A DNA stretch of 64,000 bases from Varroa destructor. Its lineage: Eukaryota > Arthropoda > Arachnida > Mesostigmata > Varroidae. The stretch spans positions 28,346,239-28,410,238 of the forward strand of contig NW_019211455.1 of assembly GCF_002443255.2 (NCBI RefSeq), given 5' to 3'. Under the pieces are notes generated by a model. The model ran no database searches. It was not told the DNA's origin and worked only from the letters and a program-made list of their open reading frames with translations. Shown one piece after another: positions 34,111 to 58,676 of the stretch. Within the stretch, counting starts at the first letter, position 1. The number at the start of each line of letters is the position of its first letter. Position numbers and translations under genes: made by a program.

Positions 34111-37100
34111 GTACGTAGATGCTTATCTCACCAAACAACGTAAATACAATAATTAGTCATTCAAAAGACCGTTACCGCTTTGCCACTGGTACGTTGAAAT
34201 CAACCCGAGTCGTCAGACGACAGAGTGATGTGTAGTCAACTGACAATTACAAAAATTACGACTAGAGTAGGTTAATCTAGCCCTTCGCTGGAAAATAAAT
34301 CGTGCCAAGCTTTAACGTTGCTTAGCAGCTGATTAAATAGCTGTTATATCCAAGCAGAATCAATTCCAATATGAAATTTATTTATTGTATAATTTTACAT
34401 TTTATTTTTTCTTTCGCTTATTTATTGTCTGTCTGTGTGTCAGTTGGCGTACACGATGAGGTCGAAATTATAGCCAGAACTTCGTCATAAATTATTTTTA
34501 GTTGTAACTTCGTCATATTCTCTGCTGTGTTATTTGGCCAGCGGTCAACCGGTAGTGAATAATATGAATATATATTTATACATATATATATGAAGAAAAA
34601 TGTGAAATCACTGACGCATATTTAACTAAGATAATTGAAACATACGGTTTCATTTAAGTTCTGGACCTCGAATAGTTTGTTAGTTCGTTGAATATCTGGC
34701 CATATTCTTGTCGTACATAAAACGGTGTAATCGTTGCCAAAAATGCGTGGAAAACGGTTTTAAGTAATAACGTTTACGATTTGCAACATATTATTGAAAC
34801 TGTAACTAGTTTAAGCCACAATACAAAGAAATCACACTATTTATGTGTATGACAAAAGCCACCTAGATTGTTTACGTACTCGCTAAAATATCAAAAGCTG
34901 TTTGAAACCAAAGATATGTTCAGGTATCTATATATAAATGAATATATAATAATATTCATAATATTTTATTTGTTAATTGAGGCTCATAATAATACACGAT
35001 AGTTTTTTTCCTGTATCCTACCTCATGTGTGTAGCTGATGATAACATAAAAATTTTAAGGAAACTGTTTAGAGGATGTTTTAATTTCAACGGATTTAGTT
35101 CTACGTCGTCACTGATAATTGTTCCTCATGCTTAGTAAAGTCGCATACAAAAGATAAAGTAACGACATGAAAACTCTTGTCGATAATTTTTAATAGTGCT
35201 TTTATTCATAGCTTAAGATTTGATTTTAATAGGTGCAACTTCACTGCAGTGTTCAAAATTCGAACTCTCGTAATTTATATCTGTTAAAACATCGGCTTTC
35301 ATCTTTATGGCTGCAACGCAGAATATTTTTCGCAATTTTTGCAAGAATGATATTGGCGTTTAACTTAAAAATTTATTCTTGTTTGCCTAGGCCCGGAAAC
35401 TCCTGTTGGCCGCTTCGGTTAAACCGTTTTGGAAAGAAATACCACTTGAGAAACGTTTGGATCTCGCCCGAACCCTCGCAAAGGACGAGAATATTAACTA
35501 CTTGGCAGCCCAGATTCAATTAGCAAAACCCATCGCCAACGAGGTATTTATACGCCTTCATTGACCCGGAATTACTTAACTTAAATCAATTATTTTGACC
35601 CAAATTCACGCCCATCTCCAGGAACCATGGTTTCTGGTAGATATTATAAAAAATAGGTCTTTACAGTAATTATCATACAAACGTAACTGAAGGTGGGAAA
35701 TCATCCAAAGATAATCGTTCTAGCCGCATGTGATAATATCTAATCTCTGTGCCACTACTGGAGGGTGAATCTTTTCCGAACATGAATGTCAGGTGCAATC
35801 ATCGTCATCATTTATGGCATATATATGAAAATAATTCATTATGCATGCAACAGATTCCACCATGGGACGATGACCGTGATCTTCATGAGTGGCTTGAATT
35901 GGAAGCAGAGGCAGTACGTGCAGAGCGTGCGAGACATGAGCGCGCCGCTGCACAGGCTACCGCGAGACTCCGGGAAGCAGAAAGACGATATGAACAATAT
36001 GTCATTTCCAAACAGCAGGAAGAGGCTGCAGTGGATGCTAAATCAACTCAGTCTCGAAAGAGTGAAACTACTGGAAATCCACGTCAGGACAGCTCAGCGG
36101 TAAGTAATTCTTGTATACGGCGCAAGGAAACATACCTTTCTGTAGAACTGCGTAAGAAATAGCTAATACAATTTATATTTATCACCTACTTTTCCCCGTT
36201 TATCATTGTTCATATTGAACTATGATACTTTGAAAACGCCGTCTCTCCGTAAATGTCGAATTACTTGATCTGGCTTCTTGCTTAAGCCAAAGCCGTAGTT
36301 TGAACGGAGCACTTCGCAAGCAGTAGCTTTTGTAGGCAGTCAGTAACTAGAGGTGCCACTGTATCGAATAGTCGTTCCGAAAACAATTTTATTTTTCTGT
36401 ATTCATACCTATTTATGTAAACTTGTTTTTGTCGACAAACATCCAACATGTCTAGACGTGCGCGCTGCGATCGTCAGCCCGGATTCGTCGCTCACTCTCC
36501 AAAGACGACCTCAGCCGAAAGGGTTGTAATACCATTGGTGACAACCGAAAATCAACAACAGGTTCTCCTGGTCTTCGACGTCGACCCTCATTTGTTGCCG
36601 ATACATCACAGTCGCAGATTGAGATTCACATGACCTGCTCGAACTGCCGAGTAAACAACGAGGCCATTATAAATACACAAGACCTTGCGGCGGTAAGTTG
36701 ACTATGTGTAGCTAGAAACGCAGACATTGATCCAGATACGTAAATATTAAAGCATATTAGTGAGAATAGCAACGCTCTTACTCTTCATCATGATGCTACA
36801 CCGACGATACGATTCTTCAGATTTGCATACGATGACGATAGACTATATTGTATGCTTAATACATGGTTTGCGTATTGAAGTATTGAACCTTTAAGTGTAT
36901 ACCCACATAATCGCCGCAAATATTATGTTTGGCCTTACAGATTGCGCAACCGTTGGATGATTTGGCTCTAAACAATGTGTGAGTTGGCCTTCTTAAGATG
37001 CTCTTGATGTTTTCAGGTCGGCATCTCTGTATTGTGTAATGGTATCAAGGTTACTAGTATATATAAGGATATGTGTATGCCTAATATCTTAGTAAAATTA

Positions 37101-40100
37101 AATTGTTAGTAAAAAATTATTAGTATTCTAAAAATTATTAGTATTCTTGTTTATGTCTGCTGCCATTGATAAAGATAAAACGCGACGTAATCAGACATCA
37201 AGTGGATTTTTTTTCGCTACTTTAGGGTAACGTCGACTCCGCATGTGGGTCAACGGGTGCGTGAGAGGCTATTCAATGAGAATACCGTTGAAACTGCAAT
37301 TTCTCGAAGAAGATCCTCGTGTGTTCATTTTGAGGACGAAAAGATCATCATGTTAAACAAGGACCGCACTTTTCAGATAGGTACCTTCGTCATCGAGTTT
37401 ATATATGTAGTCTCTTGTGCATTTTAATCTCATCAATTGATAATTTAAGGTTTTGCAGAAAGAGTATTCATGCACCTCATTCTGGGTGCTTCTGCAGCTC
37501 ATTTTCGCTAGCCAACCTACTGAAGACCATAAAACGATTCCGCATATGCTGAAGAAAGCTCGGATTGCCTATTATGTGACTCTTGGATTGAAAAGAACTA
37601 GGATAGTAGGATAATCCAGCATTATTGCCATCAACCATTGCTATACATCTACATTTTCAATATATTAAGATATATTTATTATCGATGTGTGCGAATGGGT
37701 CAAAAACGGTAATCAAAAACAGGCATCTTGCTTCGTACCACATATAGTTGATGAGGACGAGAACGGAAATATTAGAGGAGATGCTAGAGAGAGTGTGTGA
37801 ACAATGCACTGGCACGAGGAAGATTATTAATATATTTACCGGCAAATAATTAAATATCGAAAATTATTAAATGCCTCATACTGTGGATACGACCCTTTGC
37901 AATAAATGCAGAAGACATTTTAAGTATAGTAAACCTAGATCGAGTCCTCCAACAAACAGCTTTAATCACTACCATAGGAAGGAAAAGCAGGTTTTCTAGA
38001 AAAGGCGAATAAGATACTAGGGTCTGCGGTTTTTCTTAGTACATGAAATTCTTAAAGGCATGCCGCTCATAGAACGCAGTAAGTTCAGCATTGGACCAAA
38101 GCAAGTATTTATGCAGATACTCGGATGTCAGTGAAAGATTTGCGATAGTGCTACGTGGGCGTCATTAGTAGTTTCACAAAGCACACAGGTTTTGACCAAG
38201 GCCGCGTCTGCTTGTGGGCCTAGGGCAGTCCTTTAGATTTGATAAATGGCGTTGCATGCCAAAAAAATTACATGTGTCAGTATTTTAACGCTGAAAGAGT
38301 GAGGTCATTCAGCAAAAGAGCAAAACAGAACGATCCTCATATTTTTTTTCTATGTGTAGTCTCAATAAATTCGCTGAGGACAAAAAGTCAGTTTGCTTCA
38401 CGGATGACTTGTCAGCGAAAAAGATGGAAGTTCTTAAATGACGCCTGAAACTACTTATATACTACAAGCAACTAATATAGCTCGACAGTTTTGAAATCGG
38501 TCAATTGATTTCTAGGCTAGTTACTATCATATGCGATTCACAAACAGGATCGACTTCTACTTGATTATTGAGTTCAGAAGCGTACGTTAAAACTGTTCAA
38601 GCATACGAATTATGTTCTTACATCTTATAAAGCAGCCCGTAGCTTTGAAGTGGGTCCCGGAAGTGTACCAGAATAAACTATAAGAGATAAGGGCCTAGCA
38701 AAGCGAAAAGCACAGGAAGTGATTTGCATGCAAAGTGTAGCGCCAGAGTACCGATGGGTCAACAGATATATCAACGATACGCGGATTTAGGTAGAAAATC
38801 ATAGAATTATTCATCCTAAAGGGTCGCTCATGGGCAGGAAATCTTGACGGTAGATTAGGATGTGGCAGTGCGCTCAAAGGTAGCACACTATTTCTACAAG
38901 AAGTAAAAGCTTATGGAATGCTTATACTGCTGGAAAAAGGAACGGCAAACAGAAATCATAGCGCAGCAAAATGTGGGTGAATCTAAGTCACGACAATAAA
39001 TTCACTGAACATTTCTCTAAGGATCACTGATTTCACTACGCAAAAGAACTAATTTTATAAACCAAATTGTTGTCGACATGTAGCAGTTAGCCCTAATTAT
39101 AGACACCTTAAAGATATAAAGGGTGCCTGTTAGTTCAATGAAAAAGTGGTATAGGGTTATACATGGGATAATTACCGAATACCCTAATGGAATTATTATC
39201 ACATGATTCAAATGTATGTATATGGTTGTAATTTAAATGCTATATACATAGATATCGGGTCTTTGATTGAAAATACTAAATTCATTTACTAAGTTACTAG
39301 TGTATTGGTTTATATTAATTTACCAAATATCGATCCCCGGGTCTAACCTCATAGGCAACTTTTCTTTTGCCGAGAATTTTACGATATATCTAATATAAAG
39401 GGAGATATTGTAGCATCTATTTGATGCACAAATCGTGTAAAATTGGAACATTCTGACAGATGGAGCTCTAATGAAGCTACTTCGGTAACTGTCGATCTGA
39501 AACGCCCTTCACACACATTTCTCGTTATTAGCCATAAAATATTTTCTGTCTATCGTTCACTTGAATTCGTATTTTGGTTTATATGCCTAAAACCGATTTT
39601 TTCTTCTCAAAAAAATGAATTTAGTCCAGCCTTATCTCTCATTTCCTTTTTCATCTGTAACGTTTATTACAGGAACGTCAGAAGACGGCGTAGAGAAAGA
39701 AAACCTAAATCCTCATCAAATCGAACGCCATAGACGGCTTGCTATGGATGACGTTGGTGATGGACCTGAGGAAGCTGTTAATCGAACTGTTGTCAAAGCT
39801 GATTCCTCTAGAGATTCCTTAACGAATAAGCCGGCCGACATCACTACAGTGGTTAGAAAGGCCAAAGCGACCATCGTTAAAGATCGTAATTTACAAAAAA
39901 GCGACACACGTAGCGCTCAAACTGTTGGAGTTAAAAGTGCGGTACCGCGGATAGCGCAACCCCGAATTGGGGGACCAGCTCGAAGCAGGCTTGCCACAGC
40001 CGGACCTGTTGCTGCAATCGGACAAGATCGCCCGCCTACGAGAAACCCTGCAACTGGCTCGACTACTAGTCGTATTGGCTTCGTCAAACCGGTTGGTTCT

Positions 40101-40979
40101 TTGAAGCTGTTCAGCTTAAGGTTTCTGATAGACACTATCTGTAAATCGTAATTAGGTTCCCAAGTAAAAAGAGATTTAGTCAAAAGAAGAGTTATCCGTG
40201 CAATTATGAGATGTTATTGAGTCCTATATGTGCGTAACTCGATTAGATTGGAATCGATCTTTGGTCGACGTTTGGGCGAATTTTGCAGTTTGATTTAAAA
40301 AATCGACGTTGAGGAGAGGTTGGTGCATTGAATTCGCTTTGGGTGCGTGGATCGAAAGCTTATTTAATTACCAAACACAAGCCACCAGCCAGTCATAGAG
40401 AAGTTCCAAACATTCATAAACGTTAAGATTACTAGCATTGCTTGTTGGTACAAACAGTAACAGTATAATAAGTGTGGACTTGTTAAATCATTGTCCGATT
40501 AACCATTCGACTTGGGAGAAATCCCAGCATAATAAAATGTCTTTGAAGAAGCTTCTGCTTGCTAAAACTTTACAATGGCACACTAAAGCTAATGAATCTG
40601 TTCAATATCAGTCATGAAGTATAAAAATAGACTATTGAAATCACTGTTTCATTAATTTATGGGTTTGTATAACCGCAGGGTAGGTTGTCAACTTATGATG
40701 TCTTATTCGGACAATTCCTAAGATTTAGCGTACATTGTTCCATGCAGTTTTTCGCACAAATAATTTTCTAAGGTTAAAAGGTATTTTTATTAATTTTAAC
40801 AGGTGTTACCATCAAAGACTTCAGCTCTGCCTGGAGCAACAAGCAATCGGAGGCCATTTGGGTCTACCGGTACAAGGGACGTACCCAGTACTGGCTTCAC
40901 TCGGTCCGGCCCTGGGGCCAAACCGTCAAAACCCGCAACAGGCCCAAATAGAGCTCCCCAAATTGGAAAACGTAGCTAA
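34063..40979 (+). CDS. Unrecognised 490-aa KEN-box protein with coiled coil and basic Ser/Pro/Gly-rich tail (8 exons)
   Basis: Exons: 34063-34110, 35391-35543, 35854-36099, 36456-36692, 36941-36978, 37226-37380, 39673-40091, 40803-40979; every junction keeps phase and total CDS is 491 codons. Residues 1-67 are helical and charged (FWKEIPLEKRLDLARTLAKD). WDDDRD at 71-76 opens a long Glu/Arg/Ala coiled coil to about 125. Residues 150-230 are Ser/Arg-rich with one CxxC (TCSNC). RERL (253-256) and KENLNP (301-306) are D-box-like and canonical KEN-box degrons. From about 330 the chain is basic and rich in Ser, Thr, Pro, Gly, like microtubule- or chromatin-binding tails. APC/C-controlled mitotic function is an inference; I do not recognise the family. 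The exon 7 donor (GTTGGT) is weak. AATAAA lies at 41110-41115. Confidence 0.85.
35391..35543 (+). CDS. KEN-box protein gene, exon 2
   Basis: Acceptor TTGCCTAG, donor GTATTT, 51 codons in phase 0. Encodes the charged helical segment ending QLAKPIANE. Confidence 0.85.
35854..36099 (+). CDS. KEN-box protein gene, exon 3 (coiled coil)
   Basis: Acceptor after GCATGCAACAG, donor GTAAGT, 82 codons in phase 0. Opens IPPWDDDRD, then an uninterrupted Glu/Arg/Ala-rich helix, then a Ser-rich stretch. Confidence 0.9.
36456..36692 (+). CDS. KEN-box protein gene, exon 4
   Basis: Acceptor ATGTCTAG, donor GTAAGT, 79 codons in phase 0. Basic and Ser-rich (RRSLSKDDLSRKG, LRRRPSF), the latter two resembling basophilic kinase sites; ends with a single CxxC. 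Confidence 0.85.
36941..36978 (+). CDS. KEN-box protein gene, exon 5
   Basis: 38 bases between acceptor GGCCTTACAG and donor GTGAGT; encodes IAQPLDDLALNN plus two bases of the next codon. Confidence 0.8.
37112..37147. repeat. Perfect tandem duplication of 18 bp
   Basis: AAAAATTATTAGTATTCT occurs twice in direct succession (37112-37129, 37130-37147), in intron 5 of the KEN-box protein gene. Likely a replication slip. Confidence 0.9.
37226..37380 (+). CDS. KEN-box protein gene, exon 6
   Basis: 155 bases between acceptor TACTTTAG and donor GTACCT. Contains RERLFNEN (D-box-like) and SSCVHFEDE; enters with two carried bases and leaves with one base over. Confidence 0.85.
37381..39672 (+). other. 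Intron 6 of the KEN-box protein gene (2.3 kb)
   Basis: AT-rich, no supported gene inside. Short frames on both strands have no splice or domain support. Confidence 0.6.
39673..40091 (+). CDS. KEN-box protein gene, exon 7 (KEN box)
   Basis: 419 bases from acceptor TTTATTACAG. The KEN codons are at 39696-39704, followed by LNP as in well-characterised KEN boxes. The rest is basic and Ser/Thr/Pro-rich. The donor CCG|GTTGGT is weak but is the only one that joins exon 8 in frame; reading past it meets a stop at 40149-40151. Confidence 0.85.
40803..40979 (+). CDS. KEN-box protein gene, exon 8 (terminal)
   Basis: Acceptor TTTTAACAG. 58 codons rich in Ser, Gly, Pro, Arg and Lys, ending QIGKRS and TAA. 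GC-rich against its flanks. The poly(A) signal lies 131 bases downstream. Confidence 0.85.
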   Translation: MLPSKTSALPGATSNRRPFGSTGTRDVPSTGFTRSGPGAKPSKPATGPNRAPQIGKRS

Positions 40980-44100: not shown

Positions 44101-47100
44101 AGAGCTATATGTTCGTGTATAAGTGTAAGTTATCGTTGCAATATGGTCTTGCTTATCCAAAATACGAACGAATGAGAACAAAATCTACCTTTCGAGAACA
44201 GACCTGTTTTTCGACAGTATTGAATTGCATCCCAGTATCTATCTGTCCTTTTATCTATGTACGCATGATGCTAAATCCATCTATAGTAGCTAACCACAAC
44301 ACCGGCTTTACGAGACAACGTAGCTTCATCACAAGCAGTAGGTGTGAGGAGTACCAAAATGGGTCGTTTTATCGACTGATATATAAAAGCTAACGTTAGT
44401 TAATACGGAGCAATGTTTAAGCCGTTCGAGAATATAGATATGTGTAAAATTTGTTGGTAACATCGTGCAGTTTCCACTATGTAGTATATTAAGAATAATC
44501 GTTTCGATTTTCTTCGTGTCGTTTTACTAATTAACCGAGCGAACCCGAAGCATCAAGCAAATCTGTTGAAATTTAAGAGCTAAGATATTTAAACCTTTAA
44601 TAGGTTGGGGCTTGAGTAATTGTCCGATGCATAGAATTTAACGTTGAACAACAGAATAAGGTGTTTGAATATGTCTGAACATGCAATACATGACTGTGTT
44701 TATTTCCGACAGCGCATTGTTAGAACAAACTGGTCGTAGAATAAAATAAAATAACGGTACTTAAGAAAGACGAAGATACAATGCTTCAAGTATGATTGAC
44801 ATACCCATGTAATCATTTTCTAGACAAAATTGCATTCTGACGCAATTTATCTTTTCCAATTTTTATAGACTATTAGCGGTCGATAGCGTTCTGTTTTATA
44901 TACATTAACTTTTGTAAAACGACACATATCAAGTCTATTCTGAAAAACAGTTTTGGAACAGATTGAAGGCTGGCTGACTATTTCGCTGGTCTAAATACGA
45001 AATAAATGCTTTGCTGTTCAAGATGCTCCACCTCTCAAAATTTGGTTCAGAAAAACTAGTACTTCTCATTATGGTGACTAACTAGCATCATTAACAAATG
45101 AGCTGCGGCTAATTAGCTCGTTGCGGTTATTCTACTATCTCGAGGTGGGACTGAAGTCGAATTTTAAAGGTAAAAATCATTGCGAAATCAAATATTCGCG
45201 TTCTTTTTCAGCAACCCTCACCTCGTTTTTCAGAAAACACCATATTCGACTCGCGACAAATATTTGAACATCCAAGCTTGTATCTGTCTTGTAGAACAAT
45301 TTCGACAGTTGGACGCACTAAAAGCTTATTCTGTCGAATATTAAATCTTTTGGAAGTATCTATTCACCGGTCATCCGACTCATCCGGTGCGCTAATATTT
45401 TAGATCCTTCATACAAGATTGACACTGCATGTCTAACTTCTACATATTTGAAAATCTATTTAAAAAAAAAAACATTTTAAGGAATTCCTCATAAGCTCAT
45501 TTAGCTTATTGCTTCGATTCTGCAGAAAAACCCCTATTATGATGCAAGATGGCATGGCAAAACTAGACACTTTCAACAGGAGTGTAATTTGGAGGTGATG
45601 TAGCAATTACTCATCTTATATTATTTATTATTATAATTTTACTCATCTTTAATTACAGTTTTGGTAACCTTGTATTGAGTTGTTTTTTAAGCATTATTAG
45701 AATCTCAGATGATTTCTTTGATGCATCTGCTCATATAACAATATCGAAGAGGTTTAACATTGCTTGATATGAAATTTTGAAAAGTGTAAAAGTTTTATTC
45801 ATTCAGTTACTGTAAGTTAGAAACTTGCTAACAATTGTTTTCATATCAAACCTACTTACAGAAGAGGGTAAAGCACCTGTGCTAACAAACTGAAATGTGC
45901 TTCGCGTATTTTATCTAAATCAGCGCTTTAAGATATATAACCTGTATCTAATAAGCATATCTAATTTGCCGATTGTGTTCTGCCGGAAATTTTAACCACA
46001 ATAATAAAAAAAACAATCTTAAATTTTTACTTCCATTTAGAAACCGCCATAGAGCCGTGATTGTCATACTGCTTAACGCCGTTCGTATCGTGAAAAAATA
46101 TGTGCATGCTAACAGCCTATTAAGTCGCGAGCTTTGTCAGGTGGGATGTATGGCGCTAAATATTAAATAAGGTTAAATTATCTGTTCACAGCACGAGGTA
46201 AAGGCTGCTGGCAGTTAGATTTAATTTAAAAAATCCAACGCAAAATTTAGCACGGTCGCATCGCCTGGTATTCATCAGCAGTGTACACTCAAACAACGAA
46301 ATGACAACTTGGGACGTGTTTGGTGGTATTTTTATTTGTACAAAAAAGCTTTCCTATTCTTGATTCTTTTTTGCCTAAACATTTGAACAGTTTAACCCCT
46401 TTATTTTGTACAAATATTATTATTTTGGTTGAATTGGTATAATTTCAATACTGACTAAGTACAACTCGCTATCACTCGTTTAAGGCGAATCGAAGAACGA
46501 CGAACTCTGAACATTTCTTGATTGTCAACACGACACAAACGTTGGCCTACCTGACAGTTTTAGGGTTACACAGGAGTCTAGCAAAACCTCTACACTTAAT
46601 TTTGTTGACTGTGATATTCCGTTGCCGCTGTTCCCGCAGTCATTTCGAGGCACGTAAAAAAAGCACCACAGCACATTAGTACCAAATAGAATACCGGTGT
46701 GATATGATTTTACTACTGAAATATTGGCAAATTATGAGTGTCTCTTCTTCTTCTTCTATAAATAGTCAATTTTAAAGCAACGGTAAAATTTTCACTGTAC
46801 ATATTCATACTTTTTATCTTCGAAGCAATACATTCATATACTGTCTGCAAAACACAACAAATACATTTACAGATGTACACATACGTACCTCTCTCTATGT
46901 ACAGGAACGTGTTTCATCGAGGATTTATCAGCAAATTATGATCAATAAATTTATTATAATAAACATAGTTTGCATTACTCCCAAAAAACGGGTAAATACA
47001 ATTAAGGTGTAGTACGTGTGCACGTTGCAAGCATCAATCAGATCTTGGAAACTGTTCTACTCAGGTGTTCACAACGGTTCCCAGTCCCTGACGTAGTAGA

Positions 47101-47119
47101 AAGCGTTGCATTTTTTCTT
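41116..47119. other. AT-rich spacer between the two convergent genes
   Basis: Six kilobases without a supported gene. Frames such as 44109-44393 plus read as random sequence. Noticeable are strongly AT-rich tracts (42135-42160, 43310-43380) and an imperfect short repeat of TTTCTGAACA near 43460-43490. Confidence 0.55.
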
Positions 47120-47125
47120 TTTATT
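47120..47125 (-). terminator. Probable poly(A) signal of the CenH3 gene
   Basis: AATAAA on the minus strand, about 100 bases downstream of the stop codon at 47224-47226. Confidence 0.6.
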
Positions 47126-47223
47126 AATTAACCGCCTCGTAATGAATGAAGCTAACAGTATTTTTTGACAGCGCTTGTAAAAAAAAATATCCTAATCTTA
47201 ATCGCCTAAGGTTCTTCAAATCT

Positions 47224-48232
47224 TCAGTCGCGCTCCACGAGTCCTAACAACCGTAAAAGTTCAAGGTCTTTAGGCATCACCGTTACGCGGTTCGCATGTG
47301 CTGCTACTCGATTTGCATCACAGAACAATGATGTTAAATAGTATTCGGTTATAGTCTGCAGCGCATCTACAGCGTCGGCTGTATACCTAAATCCCGCTGT
47401 CGGACCAGTAATTTCTTGGGTCACCTCGCGCACAACTCGGGTGAATGGAAGACGCGGGATAAGTAGATTGGTAGTGAGTTGCAGCTGCTTGATTTGTCTT
47501 ATCGTGCTCATCATTCGACTAACTTTGGTCCCAAGTTTCTGTGGTTCTGACTGCTTCCGCCGGCCTTTAAGGGTCGCCTTTCGCGCCGCCCGTACCGGTT
47601 CCATAACCGTCACTCTGTCTCGACTTGTAACTGAACTTCGTCGAGTGTCGTGACGCGATGTGCTTGCTTCGTTATTTCCTTGGACAGTTTCCGTTTGTGT
47701 CTTAGAAGCTGCAACTGTCTTGATTGTCTCGGTTCGACGAGACGTTTTTTTTACAGGAGATGCCCGCGCAGGCTCTGCCTGTTGCTCGTCATCTTTATTA
47801 TCTGTGTCTACCAACAAAGCTGGTTCGTCGACTTCATCACCCACTTCGGCAGATGCAATGGTTTTTGCGGTCTTCGGCGCTCTTTTTTTTAAGCTTGTTT
47901 TATTGGGAATAGTTTTTTTTGCAGGTGATTTATGAGAAGCCTTCTGTTGCTGTTGCTTTTTTGACTTTGGCCCGGGCAATGACTTTTGATCAACGGTGGC
48001 CTGTCGGGCAGGACGAGTCGGCGCTGCAGGGCTTTTTGCACGCTCTTCGTCTTCGTCGCTGGCAGGTGTCTCTTCCTCCTCAGGCTGATCTAGTCCCTGT
48101 TTAGACTGCGGCGTGTCTTCCATTCGAGAGGGTGTAGCTATAGCACCACTAGTGCGACTTTTAGGTCCAGGCTTACGGATTTGCAAGGGCCACGCGAACT
48201 CGCCTTTAAACGTTTTGTCTCTGTCCGAATCC
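47224..48232 (-). CDS. CENP-A: CenH3 gene, exon 5: C-terminal half of tail plus histone fold
   Basis: Acceptor TTGTATTGCAG, then 335 codons to TGA at 47226-47224. The histone fold is encoded at 47514-47227; the rest is the charged, low-complexity tail. No intron interrupts the fold. Overlapping plus-strand frames (47441-48104) are complements of this exon. Confidence 0.95.
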
Positions 48233-51200
48233 CTGCAATACAAGGTAGTTATAAAAAAAAAAGTGAAATTAGACAGCTCTTGTTAATCAGATAAATACAA
48301 TTGTACTTTTTGCTTAATATCTAAAAAGTGAATTGGAATAGCGTTTAACGAAGAATCGTACGTACGCGAACGAACCTGTAAGTTTCGGTTGTGCTGTGAG
48401 TACTATGTAATATATGTTCATATATCGTATAATCGTACAGAATCGGCATCGAAGAAATGCATCGATTCAGTGTATGAGCGTATCACTACAGGAAGCCAAA
48501 TTTTTTGAGTAGACCATATTTTTTGTTGCTGCTGCTAATGTAGAAAAGGTGCACAAAGCCAGGATAAGAAAAGGAAAGCCAGCTTGAAATCAATCAATTC
48601 TCCATCCGACAATAGCGAGTAGAACTTCATTTTCGGAAGAGAATAAAAGAAGTCTGTTTACAATAACTCACGAGAACCATAATGCCTAAATAGACTGCCG
48701 ATTTCTGGAAAGAGTTCGGCAACAAACAAATATTTCGTATCAGGGAAATACACAACACACAACATTCCTACGAAACTATGCATACAAAACACTATGCTGA
48801 CTCCTTTAACAGAGACACATACCCTTGCGAAACGCGCTGATCAGGGTGTACGAAAGGTGTTGAGTAGTCTTTCGGATTGAATTCGGGTCTGAAAATATAA
48901 TTAATCAATTAAAAACAGTACTCATCAACCTTAAATATACAATGATCGTAGTCGAACTTATAGCGAATTCATGCATTTTATGGTCGCTTAGCGCTGGCTT
49001 CATAGGGTAGACTGCGCACTTTGAGGCGCTCACTACGGCAGGCTGCCTAGAGGCTTATAGATCTCTGCTTTAGCCTTTCGAGATGTGTCATATCATGGGG
49101 TTTGAATTAGCCATCTTTGTCTTTTTACAGCCAGAAACTTAAGGCAAAAACCACCTCGTCAGTAGCCAGGTAGGTACCTGCACTTCATCGTTCTAAGATA
49201 GCCTAAAAGGTTTACTTATGTTTAGTAAAAAAAATTGTCGTTGTCTGATCTTAACCATTAACCGATGAGGCTTTATATTTTTAAGATACATGTATCTACT
49301 ATAACACCTTGCATAGTATGTTTCAAGCATGTAATCTCATGCTACGCTGAGGCTTTGTTGGTTTTTGTTAGTCCGCTTTATATCCTCACACGGAATTCTG
49401 CAGTGCTTCACGGATATCAACAGCGAAACACTTTGCTTAAAAGCTCCTTCATTGTGTGAACTGTCGTTTCTGCTGAACCTTGCAAACATCCGCAGAAGAT
49501 ACCTTTTGAAAACTTTAATTGTTATCCCCATGACTCGATACACTTCTATCCATCTGCTTCTCCCACATTATCTCATTACTAGGGGTCATCTTTTTTGTTT
49601 TTTTGTCACTTTGGGTTCCGCATCACCTATTTGAATTGTGATTCCACCTAAATTCAAGTTCTTCCCAAATACCTACAGCTGCCATGGTGAATTTGTGATG
49701 GATTCTGGCGAAATCGGAGGTTCGAATACCGGTATCAAAATGTCCACGCATTGTTTGCTATGCCTACGAGGGCGACGTCCTAGAATTCTATATTTTGTGC
49801 CATCTGCTAGAAGGGGTTGAAAACATGTGGTTTGTATTGGACACGGTACAGCGTTTTTAAAGAAATACAGAGATATTTTTGCTACATCAGAACAATCTAG
49901 GTATGTACATACGTTTCGACGTCCTTTGCTAAAGAATAGCACAGAGTATATATTCGGCTCGATTTTCAAATACTTGAACGTCAATGAATACGGTTTCACC
50001 CGATCTGCACTTATAGATTTTAGATTACTTCATAAAAATCGGGAAATATCAGGACGAGAATTTGGAATTTTACTAGTTGCATTGTGGAAACCTTACTACC
50101 AGAGTCAAGCTTGATGATTGATTGGTTTTGAATATCTATCGTTTGAACATCTATTGAATACCTCAATTAAGTAATCTTAGATAATTCCGTCTCCGTTAAT
50201 ATGTAAAGAAATTATCTTGCTATCCCGTATTTCATAGCTTCTTCATGAATAATCTGTAGCTACTTTCCTTTGCACTTGGAAGTTCCTGTAAATGACCACA
50301 GATATTTTTGAGTACCCATGATTTGTAATATGTACGCAGTTGCTGTTCTTTCATCTCTGTTATTAGCTCGACGTTAATTTCGAACTGACTTGCAATTGCG
50401 ACTGAATTAGTCTTTCTTCTTTTAAGTTCAGGTCCTTCGGTATTGTTTCTTCATAATTAAAGTACTACGACTAAGGAGGTTTAATGTTGTACCTTGTAGC
50501 ATCTAGTTGTGTGACAAGCGCAGCATTATAGTTCACAGGTAGTTTTTAACTTCACTTGCCTTTGGGTAGTTGGTCTTTCAGTCGCAGAAAATTTACTGCG
50601 AGACTTTTTTGGGCTTCGTGATGGACCTTTTGGCAACCTTTTCTCGCCATCCCTAAAAGGCAGAACAGATCACGTTGAAAACATGACAAACTTCGTAAAG
50701 ATTTTTGTAAAAAAATATTATTTTTGGTTTGGCTCCTCCACATTAACAGGTATTTGATTAAAATTTTGGATTTGGTTACTTAAATGAACACACTTAGCCA
50801 ATTAATTGCACAGGAATGAAGCCATGACAGTGTAACAAAAGTAGTCAGCAAGACTTTCAGATAGCCCAAACAAGTAAAAAGCCCTCTTACGGGCCTAGAC
50901 AAAGAAACTATTTACCAGAATAAACATCATGGCTACGGGTGAAATTTTCGATGTGCATTGTATGTTTTCTACTTGATATCCACTGTCTCCAATGGTACTG
51001 TATTAAACTGTTCGCAAGGCACTCCTTATACATTTGTTCAAATAACGCCTACCTTGGGCTCATTGTTAGCTCGCTTCCTGGTGCCCCTCGTTGGTCTCGA
51101 ACAGAAACTCGAGACTGCGTGCGGACGGTCATCCGACTTCTAGCCCAGACAAACGTGCCAAAACAAATAATATTGGGACGCAAAATTACAACTATCAAGT

Positions 51201-54200
51201 TAGACGGTCATAGCAATCATGCAGGGCATAATGAAGAACCATATTAAACCACACTGAATAATAGGTCAAGGTTGATAATAATAGTTGATGGTAATTAGTT
51301 GAAGCAGACTTCGAAACAAAAGAGGAAATAGGGAAATACTTAGTGGACATCAGAGGATAGCCTCATAAAATACATAGAGCAACTCAACAAATCGTTTGAG
51401 AACGGCAGGGAGCAGTAAAAAAGAGCTATGAATGAAGGAACCTTAAAAAAGCATGTGCCAGTCCTGCTACGAGAGAATCAGAGAAAAAAGATAACAGGGA
51501 TGTGAAATAAAATAGTAAAAGCTAGAGATTTTGAACGCAGTTAAAGGTATTCACTGCAGATTGTCTGCTAAAAATCTATCAGCAATCCAAAATCACACAC
51601 GAAAACATTTGCAAAACAAGGGATAGACAAGCTTTGATTACCCTAAAAAGAAAGATGGCCACACAATTCCCCTTTATGTGTGTGATGTGGCTAAACGCGG
51701 GAATAGCATAAATTTTTACACCGCCGATGCTATGGAGCCTACCAAAGGTCCGGGGGCCAGGAATTCTCGACACGCAATTTTGTGGCTGGGATATATAAAC
51801 CCCGTGGAGGGCAACCTGGACTTCATGTCATTCCAAGTATCACACAGTGGTAGAGAAAGCACTAGAATGAAAAAAAAATTGAAACCAACTGCTAATTCAC
51901 ATTACAAAACATAAAAAACAACTGCGTTTAAAAAAACACTCGAGATGTACTACAGGTCTTTGAAAAAGAAGGCATTGGAGCTCTGCTCAAAGCCAGAAGA
52001 AGGATACAAAATAGACACTGAAAATGTCTATTTTGAAATGTCCATTTCAATATCTTCACTGAAAATGAGTAAAATCGGCACAGGGAGATGGACTATGATC
52101 GAAGCCCCGATCAACAAGGCAAAAACTTTTGCAAGTACCTTGCAAACGGCACGTCAACATAGAAGGGACCAACCTTAGGGGCGTCCCAAGACGGGGTCCA
52201 TCAAGACAACTGTATTATGGGGAACTGACCCGCTCTCCGATAAAAGAATTCAGACAGCTCTTTCTCTGCTAGCCACTGAACCGAAAATCACTAAAAACAA
52301 GGCAGGAAAGAGCATTGCAACGGTCCCTGATGCAGTAGCCGAAAGTCTCATTGGGTACAAAACCTTGGTTCTGAAATTGAGGTGGTGCAGACCTGAAAGG
52401 TGGGCTGAACTGCTCATCTGTTTCAAACGTAGAAGCTTTTTGTCCTTTAGTGCCATAGTTTTCAGCACGAATTGTAACATTCTATAGGAAAACGATAAGA
52501 AAATACACAGGGGGATGAGTATAAAACAAAAGGACGGTAAGGAAAGCTCGACGGAAACAACGGAAAACAATGATTCAAAGAACAACAAGGAAATCAAGGC
52601 GGTGCGACGAAAAGCAGAAATACATCAAGAAAAGTAAGAGACCCGTACGCCAAAGAACAGACGAAAACTCGGATTGGAAAACCATGGGAGAAAAAGGCCG
52701 TAAACCAAACTAATGATTCGAGTACTATAAGTCAAAGATCGGAACACTACTATGCGAGAAAGTATGCGGGACATGGGTTTGACAAAAAGCCGCCTAAAAC
52801 TAAAGGTTTTGTCCTTTTGGATATGCTCGACGTTAATACCTTCAGTAGTATAGATCAGGATGTCATAATAGTTGTGTTCATGAAAAAAGACATCTCGCCC
52901 TATTTTTGCCGGATTATTTCATCATGTACGAAAACCCTAGAGACAAGTGGTTGGAGGGCAAAAGTATACGCTCACTGCTGGTGTCCCACAGGGACCGCTG
53001 CCCTGAAATCTGTACTATGATGAAGTAATAAAGCTGTAAGAGCTTCCAGAAGGAATTGAAATGTTAGCCTAATTCGATTATTTTACGCTTACAATCACAG
53101 CTAGGACAAAAAACGATCTAGAGGACGCGTCCCATGAAACCTTCGAAAAAATAGTGCAATAAATGGATTGCAAACGTCTGCAGTTGGCATCTCAAAAAAC
53201 GAAGGCGCTGTATTTAATAGGCGAGAACCGAACAAAGGAAATTAACCTAGTGGTAGCGGGCAACCCAATAAAAGTTAGGAAAAAGTCAAAGTACCTTGGA
53301 GTTACCCGGCTGGCACACCATCAATGCGTTTTGGCGGAAACCCAGCTAGTAGCCTTAAACTTGAGTCGAAATCTGCCGAGGGTCGGTCGAGCGTCGTAGG
53401 CTCCCAGCCTATATTGCGAAATCAACAGCACCATACGCAACACTAATATGGGGAAACATTAGATTGCAGTTGTCAAAATATAAGGACGCACTTAAGTCAT
53501 TCCAAAGGACGCTGGTGATCAGTATCGGCCGGGCGTACTTCACAGTCTCGACCAACACACTTCTGGTTCTAACCAAAATGGCGCTGTTGAATTTTCTGGC
53601 GGAAAAAGGAGCTCGCTATTCCTGAACAATGATGTGGAATCGATCATGGCCACAAAAGCTGCTGTAGAGAGCTGGCAGAAGGTTTGGAGAACGGTTAGAT
53701 TATAAGGATGGCCAAGGCAAGCTTGATCAAAAACCTGGTACTAGGTCTTCGGGTATGGCTGGGGGCGCAAAGATGTAACGCAGGTTTTGATCGGTAACGG
53801 ACAATTCTAAACTTACATGGTAAAAATAGAAAGAGCTCAAATAGACATATGTGTTCTCTGCGGCACCGAAGGGAAAGACAACTTAGAGCATAAATTTGCG
53901 GTACTCTGAACGAGGCAAAAAGGCAAACAATCACTTAAACGGTGGACAACGGACCCGACGGTATGAGTAGAAGTCACCAGGCAGCGAAACGTACTAATGG
54001 AGCCAGAGGAACGTAAGGAAAGAATTAAAAGAAGGGCATTCAAATGATATAAGGGAGGAAAAATAGAAAGATTAGGGACCTTGAAGTGACTAAACTCTTT
54101 AAAAGGGGGTCAAAGCACCAATTTGGGCTGAATTAATGCCTCGATAGTTTCAACTCATTAGCATATGTTAAAAAAGGTGAATTAACAAATTCATTTTAGA

Positions 54201-57200
54201 ACCTGAGGGCTTATTAACTCGAGGCTATTTTCTTTTACAGTCATCCTCACAAAGCCTAGCCCACACTTAAAGTATCGTTCAACATATACCTGAGGTGTTC
54301 GCTCACGTAACGCCTCTCTTCTTATGAAAAAATCTTTAGCTACACTACATTTTTCAACACGATAACCACTAGTCGGTTGTGTTTAAGTACGTTTAGGCTG
54401 TCTATAGGGCTAGTTCTAAAGAAGAAACCTTATTAATGATAATTGATCTATCAGACCCTTCGTCAACATTCATGTACACTATTTGGTAGAATAATACTGG
54501 TGCAGCGTAAAAACCTGGTCTTCCCCCATTCTTCACCATGATGTCTTTCAGTCCGAAAGAAACTTACTCATGATGAGTAACTTCGATAGACGGTAACGAA
54601 TGCTGTGCTTCAGAAACTTGTAATAGATTACTATCATCAGGAAGAGCACGGCCTGATGCCGCTGTACTAGTAGAGGCTTCGGCACTGCTTAAAAGGAATG
54701 AATAATAAGAACCTTATTAGTTTGCTGTTAAATTAGAATAAAGCTGTGAAAACAGCACACTGCGCACACGAATATCAGCTATGCTCCTATGCGTTTCATG
54801 GTCAGTATGCGCTTGAGTATTCCATTAGAAGAAAGTGAAACAGATGTTATTTATATTATCGTAATTACTGACAATAAAATGCAACTCAATTGTAACATTA
54901 AAGAAGGTAAAATTTCTAATAAGTAGACACGTCTTGTTATACCAGAACTGTTTTTGACATAAATACAAAAACAAATATTAATCTTTGCTTAGTAGAGTGG
55001 TACGTGATAATCCAATGATTACCCAGATCTATTGCCTGTGAGATCCATCAATGGAGATAGCCGAGATTGGGGACCGCTCTTTTCAGCCGCTCTGGAAAAG
55101 GAAACGCTTACGGGCAGTTTTAGCAAGCAGTAATCATATTGTTCACCGAATTCTTGAAATGAGGAAAAGTTAGTTTGCGCTAGTTCGAAGGTACGCCAAA
55201 AGTGTTATTGCATTTCAATGACGGTAAACAAGTCAGAAAATCTACCCCAAGAAAGTAGCACTACTTACAGCTTTTCCATTAGTCTCCTGCGCATATCTTC
55301 GAGGTTCGGAGGATTTTGCGAATTTGTTGAAAAAACTCCTTGTTGGCGGCTTGTTCGAACGCTGACTGAACTATCGGACGACGACGAGTTGCTCTCGTTG
55401 AATCCGGCCGCTATCGAAAAAGAAAAAATTCCAGTAATTCACTAATGCCATACATTTTCACTCCGATGAAGCTGAGAAATTTTAACCTTACTATCAAGGC
55501 ATCGAGAACATTGTTACAACATCTTTTATTTACTCCCTTTTGACTCTTGGCAACTCAAATCCCGGACAATACTGGCATGCCATTGACACAGGACCACATT
55601 ATGAAAAAATATAACAGTCTTCGTACCACAAAAATTACCCGATTTGCAGGTTCAAATGTTATCTTAGGTAGGTCGTGGTCTTAGTTATTATTAGCTGTAT
55701 GTGTTTAGAGTTAAATAAATGAGTACTACTGCTAAATAACGAAACCATGATACCGTTTCATAAAAAAAAAAAAGGTTTTCAACTTTAGCCTTATAAGAAA
55801 GCCAATAAATGTAAATCAACGTTCGTATAAACGCTTAACTGCAATAGTGCACTACGAAAACAGAAGCTACCGTAGATACTTACTATTAATGAGCTTTATC
55901 GATCGCAAAAACGTGTATACCTTTCCAGTTTTTATCAGTATCTTTTTCTAAAAGGGCATGCATATGATTAGTCATATATATCAGTTCCTCTCTGTTTGTA
56001 TTCTATTAGTTCCAGTTATCCGTAATTGGTTAATATTAAAGATTGTCTTCCCTTTAATTAAAAAAAAAGATTGTAACCCATATTCTCTGATGATAATATA
56101 TTAAGATACTAAAAACTTGTACAATGCAATTTGGATTATATGATTTGAACTAGGCTCACTCGTTTGAACTGGTAATCTTTATAGTGCTTCCTCTGTGATC
56201 TACTATAGACAAATTCAGCTTATGTTAGTATTTCGTCTGGACCTGATATGAACAAATTAAAGTTGACCACAAATTGCTGCTGTACGTTGGTGTAGCTTAC
56301 GTTCTACATAGGTTAACGTCACTTATACGTCACGGAGAGAATATTCCGTTGTATCAAAATATAGTCCGTATAATCTACCACAATGTTTGTATAATGAAAG
56401 ACGAAGGTTTTTTATTATTTTTTCGGTTAGTTTGACGTCCCGTTGTAGTCTTTATAGCTGTACATCGTCATAATTTTTCAACTTAGGAAATTCAGTCGTG
56501 TACTTTTTATGATGTCTCTAAGATCAGTTCGCCCTTATCCTAAATACCTCATTTAGGCTTCCGGTGACACTCAACACAACCGCAATAATATTATTATATT
56601 TTGTATTGGAACGATTAGTAACCTATTCCACTATAAATCGTCTGACGATGCTGATTTATAATAATGATAATTATTATTATTATCAAGCTCAATTTAAATA
56701 AAGCAACGCGAATTTTTCTAAAAATAGTTCCTGTGTCTTCATACAACTATCGTAAAATTGAAAAGAAACATTCATTCTAAATCCGTTCACTTGTGGTAGC
56801 TTTAGATAGTGGTTTACCCAGTGTGCGCATTAGATTGTAAGAAGTTGGTTCGATAGGTCACGTAAAGGTTATTAATAACATTTTAGGACACAATTAGAAC
56901 ATAAGTTTTTTGATGAGATAATATATACCACCATGCATAGATATGAGGAAAAAGCCTTCGTTTATTATTTATTATAATACTATTTACTTTTGAGGTTTAA
57001 ACATTTATTTTGCCGCTTTTCGCATTTGCGCCTTTTTGTACTGTATATTAACGATGAGTCGGGTTAAGCTATATAACTAGAAAACATTAAAGTAATGAAT
57101 GCATCTGCTCATTCTGTAAGTATTACATAGCTAGTTAGGATAGAAAGCAAAAATGATTTTTCTAAATAGTTACAGGTTCTTACAGCTGATATGGCGCTAT

Positions 57201-57344
57201 AAAATGGTCCCGTGCTGCTATAGGCGATACAAAACTACTTATTACTTTTTTCTTTATTAAATCACAGCCAAATTGGGCTCGTGTTAGTTTGGTTCGGAAC
57301 TACTTACCTGCCATATAGTCATTAAATCCATCGCGTCTTGCCAT
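47224..57344 (-). CDS. CENP-A: Centromeric histone H3 variant (CENP-A/CenH3) with a tail of about 360 residues, 5 exons
   Basis: CenH3 replaces H3 in centromeric nucleosomes and founds the kinetochore. Exons: 57344-57308, 55410-55269, 54687-54568, 48888-48823, 48232-47224. All four junctions keep phase, giving 457 residues. The H3-type fold is residues 362-457: alpha-1 LLIPRLPFTRVVRE, loop 1 ITGPTAGF about three residues longer than canonical H3 (a CenH3 hallmark), alpha-2 with ALQ and LFCDANRVAAHA, then RVTVMPKDLELL. The H3 C terminus is replaced by LLGLVERD and no canonical H3 tail is present. The tail has a Ser run (exon 2), acidic blocks at 172-185 and 250-275, and basic parts with SPAKK and SPVKK, the S/P/K motifs of linker-histone tails. 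Start: AAAATGG context. The tail is far longer than in human CENP-A (whole protein about 140 aa). The exact 5' start is not proven. Confidence 0.9.
48823..48888 (-). CDS. CENP-A: CenH3 gene, exon 4
   Basis: 66 bases between acceptor TATTTTCAG and donor GTATGT. Encodes PEFNPKDYSTPFVHPDQ and four more residues, with split codons on both sides that match exons 3 and 5. Confidence 0.85.
50526..50652 (-). CDS. Possible alternative exon of the CenH3 gene with an SPKK motif
   Basis: A good acceptor (TCTGCCTTTTAG) is followed by an open frame that continues exon 3 in phase. It encodes DGEKRLPKGPSRSPKKSRSK and on to a stop at 50526, in keeping with the tail's basic S/P/K style. A donor-like GTGAAG at 50555 would give a 97-base exon, but this cannot join exon 4 in frame. 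If real it would be a terminal exon producing a form without the histone fold, or need another exon. Chance is not excluded. Confidence 0.25.
51650..54110 (+). mobile_element. Decayed non-LTR retrotransposon (R1/I-like LINE), antisense in CenH3 intron 3
   Basis: Colinear scraps of a LINE polymerase, interrupted by stops and frameshifts. A reverse-transcriptase core lies at 52800-53030 (FVLLDMLDVNTF, then a degraded GVPQGS-type block at CPTGTAAL). The catalytic FADD-type box near 53065-53080 has decayed to a stop and FDYF. The thumb region at 53160-53310 has LQLASQKTKAL and KKSKYLGV. A downstream region at 53455-53620 has the ALKSFQRTL and TVSTNTLLVL pattern. A C-terminal CxxC...H zinc-finger remnant is at 53847-53911 (CVLCGTEG). 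No full ORF, target-site duplication or poly(A) tail could be fixed, so the ends are approximate; the 5' part may reach to about 51 kb. It is inactive. Confidence 0.8.
54568..54687 (-). CDS. CENP-A: CenH3 gene, exon 3
   Basis: 120 bases between acceptor CCTTTTAAG and donor GTAAGT. Ser/Thr/Ala-rich start, then LPDDSNLLQVSEAQ. The acceptor reads AAGCAG, a NAGNAG tandem site; use of the second AG would drop one Ser and stay in frame. Confidence 0.8.
55269..55410 (-). CDS. CENP-A: CenH3 gene, exon 2
   Basis: 142 bases between acceptor TTTTTCGATAG and donor GTAAGT. Contains a serine run (NESNSSSSDSSVSV) and ends in a basic helix-like LEDMRRRLMEKL, whose last codon is split with exon 3. Confidence 0.85.
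57308..57344 (-). CDS. CENP-A: CenH3 gene, exon 1 (start)
   Basis: ATG in AAAATGG context, 12 codons (MARRDGFNDYMA) and one base, then donor GTAAGT. The split codon joins exon 2 as GCG. No upstream in-frame stop was seen in the roughly 45 bases checked, so a start further upstream is not excluded. Confidence 0.7.
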
Positions 57345-57700
57345 TTTGCTGATGCGATATGACACCCGCTTAGTTAGCAGAACAATAATTGATATTCTCT
57401 CGGTCTTATATGGTTTACAGGTTTTATTCGCACAACCCAAGTGCGACAACGGCACTTTGTACGCAAAAATATACTATTTTTTGAAAATACCGCACGTCAT
57501 TAAGGTTATATGGGAGTGCCAAAAACATAAAAACCCATTTTTCACAAAACGTTTTCGAGATTTCACAAAAGAAATTAGAACGAAGGACTTCCCTTAGTTT
57601 AACTTGAAGCCGCTAGCCGAAATGGCGCCAACAAGTGTTCAATCTGGCGCTGAATAGACGCATTGGCGCTCACCCTCCTGAGCGCCATGGACAGATTCAA
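57345..57700 (-). promoter_or_regulatory. Probable CenH3 promoter with E2F-like GGCGC cluster
   Basis: Within 280-345 bases upstream of the start codon lie TTGGCGCCAT (57622-57631, minus-strand reading; close to the palindromic E2F consensus), TGGCGC at 57645-57650, and a perfect inverted repeat TGGCGCTCA/TGAGCGCCA at 57664-57687. They stand out from the AT-rich flanks. E2F control would suit a cell-cycle-regulated CenH3; that is inference. Confidence 0.4.
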
Positions 57701-58676
57701 GGTAACTGAGCCGAAAGCTGCTGGTTAAAATCCTATTGACATGACCTGGAATTCTAACTGCAAGTATAGAAAAAAGATTTTCCCTCTTAAAAAAATTTAT
57801 TGTACGCTAAGGAACGAACAAATATGCAATACTTACAAACCTATATTCACGATGAATGTAGATATCGCTAAGTACAGGTTAGTTCGTAACGCCATAAGCT
57901 CTATTTACTTACGAAATTAACTGTGCGTTGAAATAACAGTGTTTCTGATTTCATTAAAGCTGTTCTATGAAGTACAGGGGCATATAACATTGAAATTATT
58001 ACGTATGATTGAGAAAATTTAATAATGATCAAAGTCAGCTATAGCTACAGTAAGTGAAAACCAGACGTGTAAGTCACAGATTTACTTTAGATAGTTTAAG
58101 AGGAATAATTTAAATAAGTTGGCGCCTTTTAACTTCTTGCTTTCGTAATACTTGCCGGCTGCAACTAAATTGACCCTAAATTGACTGATACCGATAGATA
58201 ATTTGCAGGTGGAGGCATACTAAAACACAAAATTGTCCTAAAGGCATACATAGAATATAGACAGCTCCATACCAAAGTATGTTATATTATATATTAATAC
58301 TTTTTAATAGATACTGGAGCCTGCACGTTTTATTGCTAGTTTGTTAGCAATACTACAACCGTCTGTACCATACTTTAATTTACCGGCCCTTGATGACTGT
58401 ATTCGGCGAATACACATCTATTCAGTTTTTGCTTTTTTTATATATATTTTTTATATATATTAATTTTTATATATTTTAATTCTGGTACTTTATGGACATT
58501 GTTGTTACATCCGCCCTAGAACATCCAAAGTTGATCCGGTCAATTTGAATCATATATCTTGTATTACACGGCTTTTTTTTCGAATATATATCAGCAATTT
58601 TAAACACTAAAGAGGTTTAACGAGGTCAAACAAGGAAAAGTAGCACACTCGAACACCTGGAGTTTTTAATCCATAC

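Follow-up and report, generated by a model that had tools for sequence, protein, structure and literature searches.

Published diagnostics of the centromeric histone CenH3 (CENP-A) are an extension of loop 1 together with three missing residues, Q69, F85 (Met counted) and a diagnostic threonine. The tail of C. elegans HCP-3 (CENP-A) is described as binding KNL-2 (PMC9577544, PMC8259991, PMC13001451), and a recent preprint terms this tail exceptionally long. In S. cerevisiae, according to another study, residues 34-46 of the Cse4 END fold as a helix on Okp1-Ame1 (PMC13079627). Acariform mites are holocentric and some holocentric arthropods are reported to have lost CenH3, so that its presence in Varroa is not to be assumed. 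Among titles and the opening lines of abstracts no work on a Varroa CenH3 was found, and the literature passages retrieved held no statement on the centromere type of this mite.

Here we describe a gene on the minus strand (57344-47224) of a window of 64,000 nucleotides of Varroa destructor DNA, to whose positions all coordinates refer. It is filed in the database as 'histone H3.v1-like', though it is likely the centromere histone of the mite. Our main reading, to which we assign a probability of roughly 0.6, is that this gene, with its H3-type fold, loop 1 longer by three residues and tail of 414 or 443 residues, is the likely Varroa CenH3, and that its tail, predicted to be mostly disordered, would serve as an arm linking centromeric nucleosomes with factors of loading or of the inner kinetochore. 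Its features are:

57308..57344, minus strand: coding exon 1, with the start codon at 57344 and the donor GTAAGT
55269..55410, minus strand: coding exon 2, encoding part of the predicted tail helix (residues 49-59 out of 49-64)
55023..55091, minus strand: coding exon 3, in which the tail helix finishes; one SP site
54568..54684, minus strand: coding exon 4, in both exon joins
51053..51139, minus strand: alternative coding exon 4b, 29 residues, in P0002 and not in P0003
50560..50652, minus strand: coding exon 5, with the GC-AG donor GCAAGT; encodes SPKKS
48823..48888, minus strand: coding exon 6, in both exon joins
47224..48232, minus strand: last coding exon, with the remaining tail (acidic and SPxK stretches), the histone fold and the stop codon
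47227..47514, minus strand: H3-type histone fold, with loop 1 ITGPTAGF, three residues longer than in H3

The seven-exon join reproduces letter for letter the protein P0003 ('histone H3.v1-like isoform X3' of V. jacobsoni, 510 aa), and the eight-exon join, which includes the alternative exon at 51139-51053, is likewise identical to P0002 (isoform X1, 539 aa). The original prediction had proposed five exons, encoding 457 aa with a tail of 361 residues (given as about 360). It overlooked the exons at 50652-50560 and 48888-48823 as well as the alternative exon, so that the tail measures 414 or 443 residues instead, and the five-exon model was dropped in favour of the joins identical to public proteins. 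The remaining elements of that model, namely the ATG at 57344, the stop codon ending at 47224, exons 1-4, the last exon and the reading frame phase kept at each exon join, all match the joins of the annotated proteins; the tail, said to exceed three times the length of the fold, in fact surpasses the histone part more than fourfold in length. NCBI annotation of both Varroa genomes drew on species-specific RNA-seq and protein homology, according to the genome paper (PMC6773775). The animal probably makes the tail in two versions, one that includes exon 4b and one that skips it. An origin of exon 4b as an exonised repeat was considered and is unsupported: the exon has a single match in the genome, in a search that skips very common words.

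One intron spans about 3.9 kb, or 3.4 kb where exon 4b is used, and apparently holds a degenerate retroelement; this could be taken to mean that exons 1-6 come from another gene and that the CenH3 begins in the last exon, with an ordinary shorter tail. We regard such a model artefact as highly improbable, since all joins are in phase and the annotated isoforms X1 and X3 both begin at exon 1, against the possibility, raised earlier, of transcripts starting inside the last exon. Furthermore, exon 5 was the sole candidate to pass a strict splice and open-frame filter applied to the 6.3 kb that separate exon 4 from exon 7, although exons 4b and 6 escaped this filter. Within 46800-58000 no repeats of at least 24 bases were found, Rfam and tRNA scans of the window returned nothing, and ten other ORFs of the window had no Pfam match above the cut-off.

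The assignment to the H3 type holds at the level of both sequence and predicted structure. The fold matches the Pfam family Histone (PF00125, E 3e-25) and H3 chains of the PDB (top E 4e-19, among the best 60 of 177 matches), and its model matches nucleosomal H3 in a Foldseek search of the PDB (E 2e-5, TM 0.67, rmsd 5.4-7.3 among the matches listed), the confidence predicted for the 96-aa fold being middling (pLDDT 67). An NCBIfam search gave only a sub-threshold match to archaeal histones. The fold resembles H3, with 44/101 positions shared, more than human CENP-A (38/96) or Cid (34/103). The lengthening of loop 1 was borne out: between the motifs used, this region has 37 residues, compared with 34 in the eight other places of the same genome where an H3 or H3.3 frame is complete, an extension of +3 over H3 where human CENP-A and Cid have +2. 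The canonical H3 tail is absent, as predicted, and is replaced by the 414 or 443 other residues. At the diagnostic positions, H3 Q68 is T, F84 is Y and T107 is A in the Varroa fold. Because T118 is kept not only in this fold but also in human CENP-A and Cid, the diagnostic threonine, printed as 118 in the CenH3 paper, is read here as probably T107/108.

Phylogenetic trees place the fold nearer to H3, at the end of a long branch. It is split from CENP-A/Cid rows with a support of 94/100 in a 15-row tree and from CENP-A with 92/100 in a 12-row tree, and falls in a 20-row tree within a set of ten rows that holds no CENP-A/Cid (97/97); the tree program warned that long branches make this placement unsure. 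The tree proposed as a check of the centromeric assignment thus leans towards H3 without deciding the matter: a grouping forced with CENP-A/Cid is not rejected by the AU test (p 0.37 and 0.44). Nor is a grouping forced with the H3 row (p 0.23) or with the H3.3 row (p 0.29); placement inside the H3 rows gave p 0.23 with five such rows and 0.095 with three.

The position of this long branch near H3 would suit a non-centromeric, fast-evolving H3 variant with, for example, a role in germline or sperm chromatin. The database name would suggest as much, and the reported loss of CenH3 in some holocentric arthropods points the same way. SPxK stretches resemble DNA-binding tails and count toward this variant too. 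The failure to find CENP-C adds a weak argument in its favour: its Mif2 cupin (PF11699) gave one sub-threshold match (E 4.1), in an apparent BTB-kelch gene, in an exon-by-exon search, and the C-terminus of human CENP-C gave none as a genome query. An exon-by-exon search for SANTA was equally negative, and because these searches had no positive control, the CENP-C and SANTA results say little either way. Against a non-centromeric variant stand the long loop 1 and the missing Q, F and T, which are the published CenH3 diagnostics, and the lack of any other candidate among the histone loci examined. PF00125 has 46 matches in the genome, and in a comparison of part of these (loci L001-L024 and the window, a split H3 copy on C6 being left out) the window gene is the sole H3-type fold with a long loop. 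We therefore consider a non-centromeric variant improbable. The CenH3 identity is well supported because the residues at 68, 84 and 107, the length of loop 1 and the uniqueness of the long loop among the loci examined agree, while the lean of the trees towards H3 and the closer resemblance of the fold to H3 weigh against it. A genomic match over the cut-off for NDC80, a gene of the outer kinetochore, is a further point for the main reading.

The tail is predicted to be mostly disordered, 324 of the 510 residues of the shorter form having a pLDDT under 50. The only tail structure predicted with confidence is one helix (residues 49-64; mean pLDDT 87 over 51-60), which shows no clear amphipathic pattern (its hydrophobic moment of 0.385 is reached by 15% of shuffles). 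In the numbering of the 510-aa form, the two acidic stretches originally described span roughly residues 226-238 and 304-324. The SPxK motifs reported earlier are present, but only slightly above chance: the 414-residue tail has four [ST]Px[KR] motifs against a shuffle mean of 1.26 (p 0.036), a mild excess, and its nine [ST]P sites overall are not enriched (p 0.27). No Pfam family was found in the 440 tail residues searched.

Searches based on the fold found no homologue outside Varroa. Among 238 candidate proteins of about 281-892 aa two were found, both from Varroa, and among 44 of about 104-331 aa none passed the strict 1e-8 cut. In a profile search that scored 7986 candidates, 3301 proteins reached E <= 0.001; the best 120 of these 3301 were mostly vertebrate CENP-A, and Varroa P0003 was the only mite among the rows with a name, some rows being nameless.

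These properties leave some room, though in our judgement not the larger part, for a CenH3 in which the tail, disordered and drifting fast, serves as a passive spacer devoid of any docking role, the fold alone being of importance. The very low pLDDT of most of the tail, the lack of a Pfam family and of a homologue outside Varroa, the mildness of the SPxK excess and the lack of a clear amphipathic pattern in the helix all fit such a spacer. The predicted helix itself and the roles described for other CenH3 tails argue against it, as does the fact that seven or eight phase-matched exons stay open here and in the annotated Varroa proteins, species too close for this to demonstrate constraint.

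In our preferred reading, that of a CenH3 with a linking arm, the gene product would take the place of H3 at centromeres, and the disordered arm would tether the nucleosome there to proteins that load it or belong to the inner kinetochore. A lineage-specific platform, as first suggested, is likewise a putative role, the searches with the fold having found no relative outside Varroa and the tail having a single confidently predicted structure, its helix. The tail helix may be the kinetochore-docking element, holding a partner as the Cse4 END helix does with Okp1-Ame1 or the HCP-3 tail with KNL-2, and the SPxK stretches could make CDK-controlled DNA contacts. In a bolder and improbable version, Varroa would have built part of the inner-kinetochore scaffold into its centromeric nucleosome as an alternatively spliced arm of 414-443 residues, whose N-terminal helix does the linker or loading work of CENP-C, CENP-U/Q or KNL-2 elsewhere and whose two lengths are toggled by exon 4b. 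Recognition of the gene provides a candidate centromere marker for the bee parasite Varroa and for mesostigmatid mites.

Compared with human CENP-A and Drosophila Cid, the Varroa protein also has an H3-type fold, a longer loop 1, a non-H3 tail and residues other than Q, F and T at H3 positions 68, 84 and 107; it differs in its tail of 414/443 residues, a loop extended by three rather than two residues and a more H3-like fold. The stretch ahead of the PF motif has 436 (P0003) or 465 (P0002) residues. In 118 CenH3-profile matches among those listed, which are mostly vertebrate, its median is 63 and its longest instance, in a two-fold H3 of Lotus, has 221. C. afra hcp-3L8, a CenH3 joined to CENP-C parts, has a remade N-terminal part as in Varroa, but is homologous to hcp-4, whereas the Varroa tail matches no Pfam family. 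The Cse4 END helix, like the one predicted for Varroa, is short and lies close to the N-terminus of a tail that is otherwise loose, with no homology claimed; it forms upon binding of Okp1-Ame1. C. elegans HCP-3 is, like the Varroa protein, an animal CenH3 with a long tail and a predicted structured part. HCP-3 ends at residue 287, and because the Varroa tail far exceeds that of HCP-3, itself called exceptionally long in the preprint, the Varroa protein is well suited to studying the role of CenH3 tails.

The gene on the minus strand of the window (57344-47224) encodes a candidate CenH3 (CENP-A), in which an H3-type histone fold stands behind a long tail. All five exons of the original prediction are real, but the gene also has two further internal exons (5 and 6) and an alternative exon (4b), as joins identical to database proteins indicate.

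Coding exons of the candidate CenH3 gene (window positions)
57344-57308, minus strand, coding exon 1, seven-exon join
55410-55269, minus strand, coding exon 2, seven-exon join
55091-55023, minus strand, coding exon 3, seven-exon join
54684-54568, minus strand, coding exon 4, seven-exon join
51139-51053, minus strand, alternative exon 4b, eight-exon join
50652-50560, minus strand, coding exon 5, seven-exon join, GC-AG intron
48888-48823, minus strand, coding exon 6, seven-exon join
48232-47224, minus strand, last coding exon (7), seven-exon join

Conceptual splicing of the window, which lies in contig C2 and has a GC content of 40.8%, yields an uninterrupted seven-exon frame of 510 codons plus stop, whose product is identical in every letter to the V. 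jacobsoni 'histone H3.v1-like isoform X3' (P0003); inclusion of exon 4b gives 539 codons plus stop and a product equally identical to P0002, which represents a cluster of 8 sequences and is named isoform X1. Because the added exons are internal, divisible by three in length and preserve phase 2, a model with only five exons likewise seemed to have a perfect frame. Between exons 4 and 7 (6.3 kb), exon 5 was the sole candidate to pass a strict exon filter, which failed to recover exons 4b and 6. Since the gene is already in public databases under another name, the new part is its re-identification, together with the unusual tail. No Varroa CenH3 is described in the titles and abstract openings of the papers found on Varroa with centromere, CenH3 or CENP-A, nor in the consulted part of PMC3401891, and the genome paper (PMC6773775) holds no match for 'centromer' or 'kinetochore'.

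The fold begins at residues MMSTIRQ, and the predicted lengthening of loop 1 is borne out by alignment with H3, which gives three additional residues (two in human CENP-A and Cid). The aligned H3 positions Q68, F84 and T107 are occupied by T, Y and A. These characters match the CenH3 features listed in the consulted part of Drinnenberg et al. (PMC4359364), except for threonine number 118, which is also kept in human CENP-A and Cid; we take the diagnostic threonine printed there as 118 to be T107/108. Among the histone loci read in the genome as searched (366.2 Mb, 112 contigs; small pieces of the published Vdes_3.0, 368.94 Mb in 1426 scaffolds, PMC6773775, seem to be missing from it), the long loop occurs in the window only and the canonical loop at eight other places with a complete H3 or H3.3 frame, a count that leaves out a split H3 copy on contig C6 and degenerate copies. 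Degenerate H3 copies lie at loci L021 (G000:C42:11300-11900) and L019 (G000:C2:44833400-44834000). Identity amounts to 44 of 101 aligned positions with H3 and 38 of 96 with human CENP-A; the case for CenH3 does not rest on it.

Trees of the fold, a check suggested with the original prediction and sampled without other chelicerates because none were found, lean towards H3 as closest kin. Varroa forms a long branch on the H3 side (1.39, 2.23 and 3.56 changes per column with 20, 15 and 12 rows). In the 15-row tree Varroa falls together with H3, and a branch with support 94/100 sets the two apart from CENP-A and Cid (92/100 for the corresponding branch without Cid); in the 20-row tree it belongs to a set of ten H3 and ungrouped rows (97/97). 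The verdict is not clean, since AU tests reject neither Varroa with CENP-A/Cid (p 0.37, 0.44) nor Varroa within the H3 rows (p 0.095-0.29).

The tail, predicted at about 360 residues, instead measures 414, or 443 with exon 4b; the shorter form contains 74 basic and 56 acidic residues. The anticipated SPxK motifs are present ([ST]Px[KR], 4 versus 1.26 expected, p 0.036), but [ST]P sites overall are not enriched. A Pfam search with 440 tail residues matched no family. AlphaFold2 places 324 of the 510 residues below pLDDT 50 and predicts a single confident tail helix (residues 49-64; mean pLDDT 87 over 51-60) and a short low-confidence one (8-13), from an alignment covering most of the tail with two Varroa rows only. 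The stretch preceding the PF motif spans 436 and 465 residues in Varroa, whereas its median is 63 and its longest case 221 among the other listed profile-search matches (P0004-P0122, 118 of 119 counted because P0060 lacks the motif), a comparison that is not a survey of all CenH3 because it covers the best 120 of 3301, mostly vertebrate. In P0004 (Lotus japonicus, 291 aa) the H3 fold occurs twice in tandem; annotation may have merged two genes.

Within the intron after exon 4, broken plus-strand frames antisense to the gene (51915-53705) resemble what we take, by motif, to be a degenerate non-LTR retroelement; five pieces of this stretch gave no Pfam family above cut-off. Exon 4b sits between it and exon 5 and has one match in the genome, so it does not seem to derive from a recent repeat. 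Elsewhere in the window, two plus-strand frames that are open from one stop to the next (35737-36162, 141 aa; 39591-40151, 186 aa), likewise without a Pfam family above cut-off, are perhaps exons of a neighbouring gene usable as a synteny anchor.

Acariform mites are reported as holocentric and most arachnids as monocentric (PMC11855311). On centromere type, the consulted part of one review mentions, from the mites and ticks, Acariformes and Rhipicephalus (PMC7392213); that of an older one calls the Varroa genome project useful for holocentric evolution, leaving the centromere type of Varroa unstated (PMC3401891).

Beyond the histone fold itself, we infer a mechanism in which the fold would pair with H4 in a centromeric nucleosome, the long arm would extend out of it, and the helix near the tail N-terminus may dock onto a loading or inner-kinetochore factor. 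NDC80 has a match in the same genome; CENP-C and SANTA searches there, run without a positive control, were empty. Models for such docking are the END helix of S. cerevisiae Cse4, which docks on Okp1-Ame1 (PMC13079627), and the tail of C. elegans HCP-3, which docks on KNL-2 (PMC9577544, PMC8259991).
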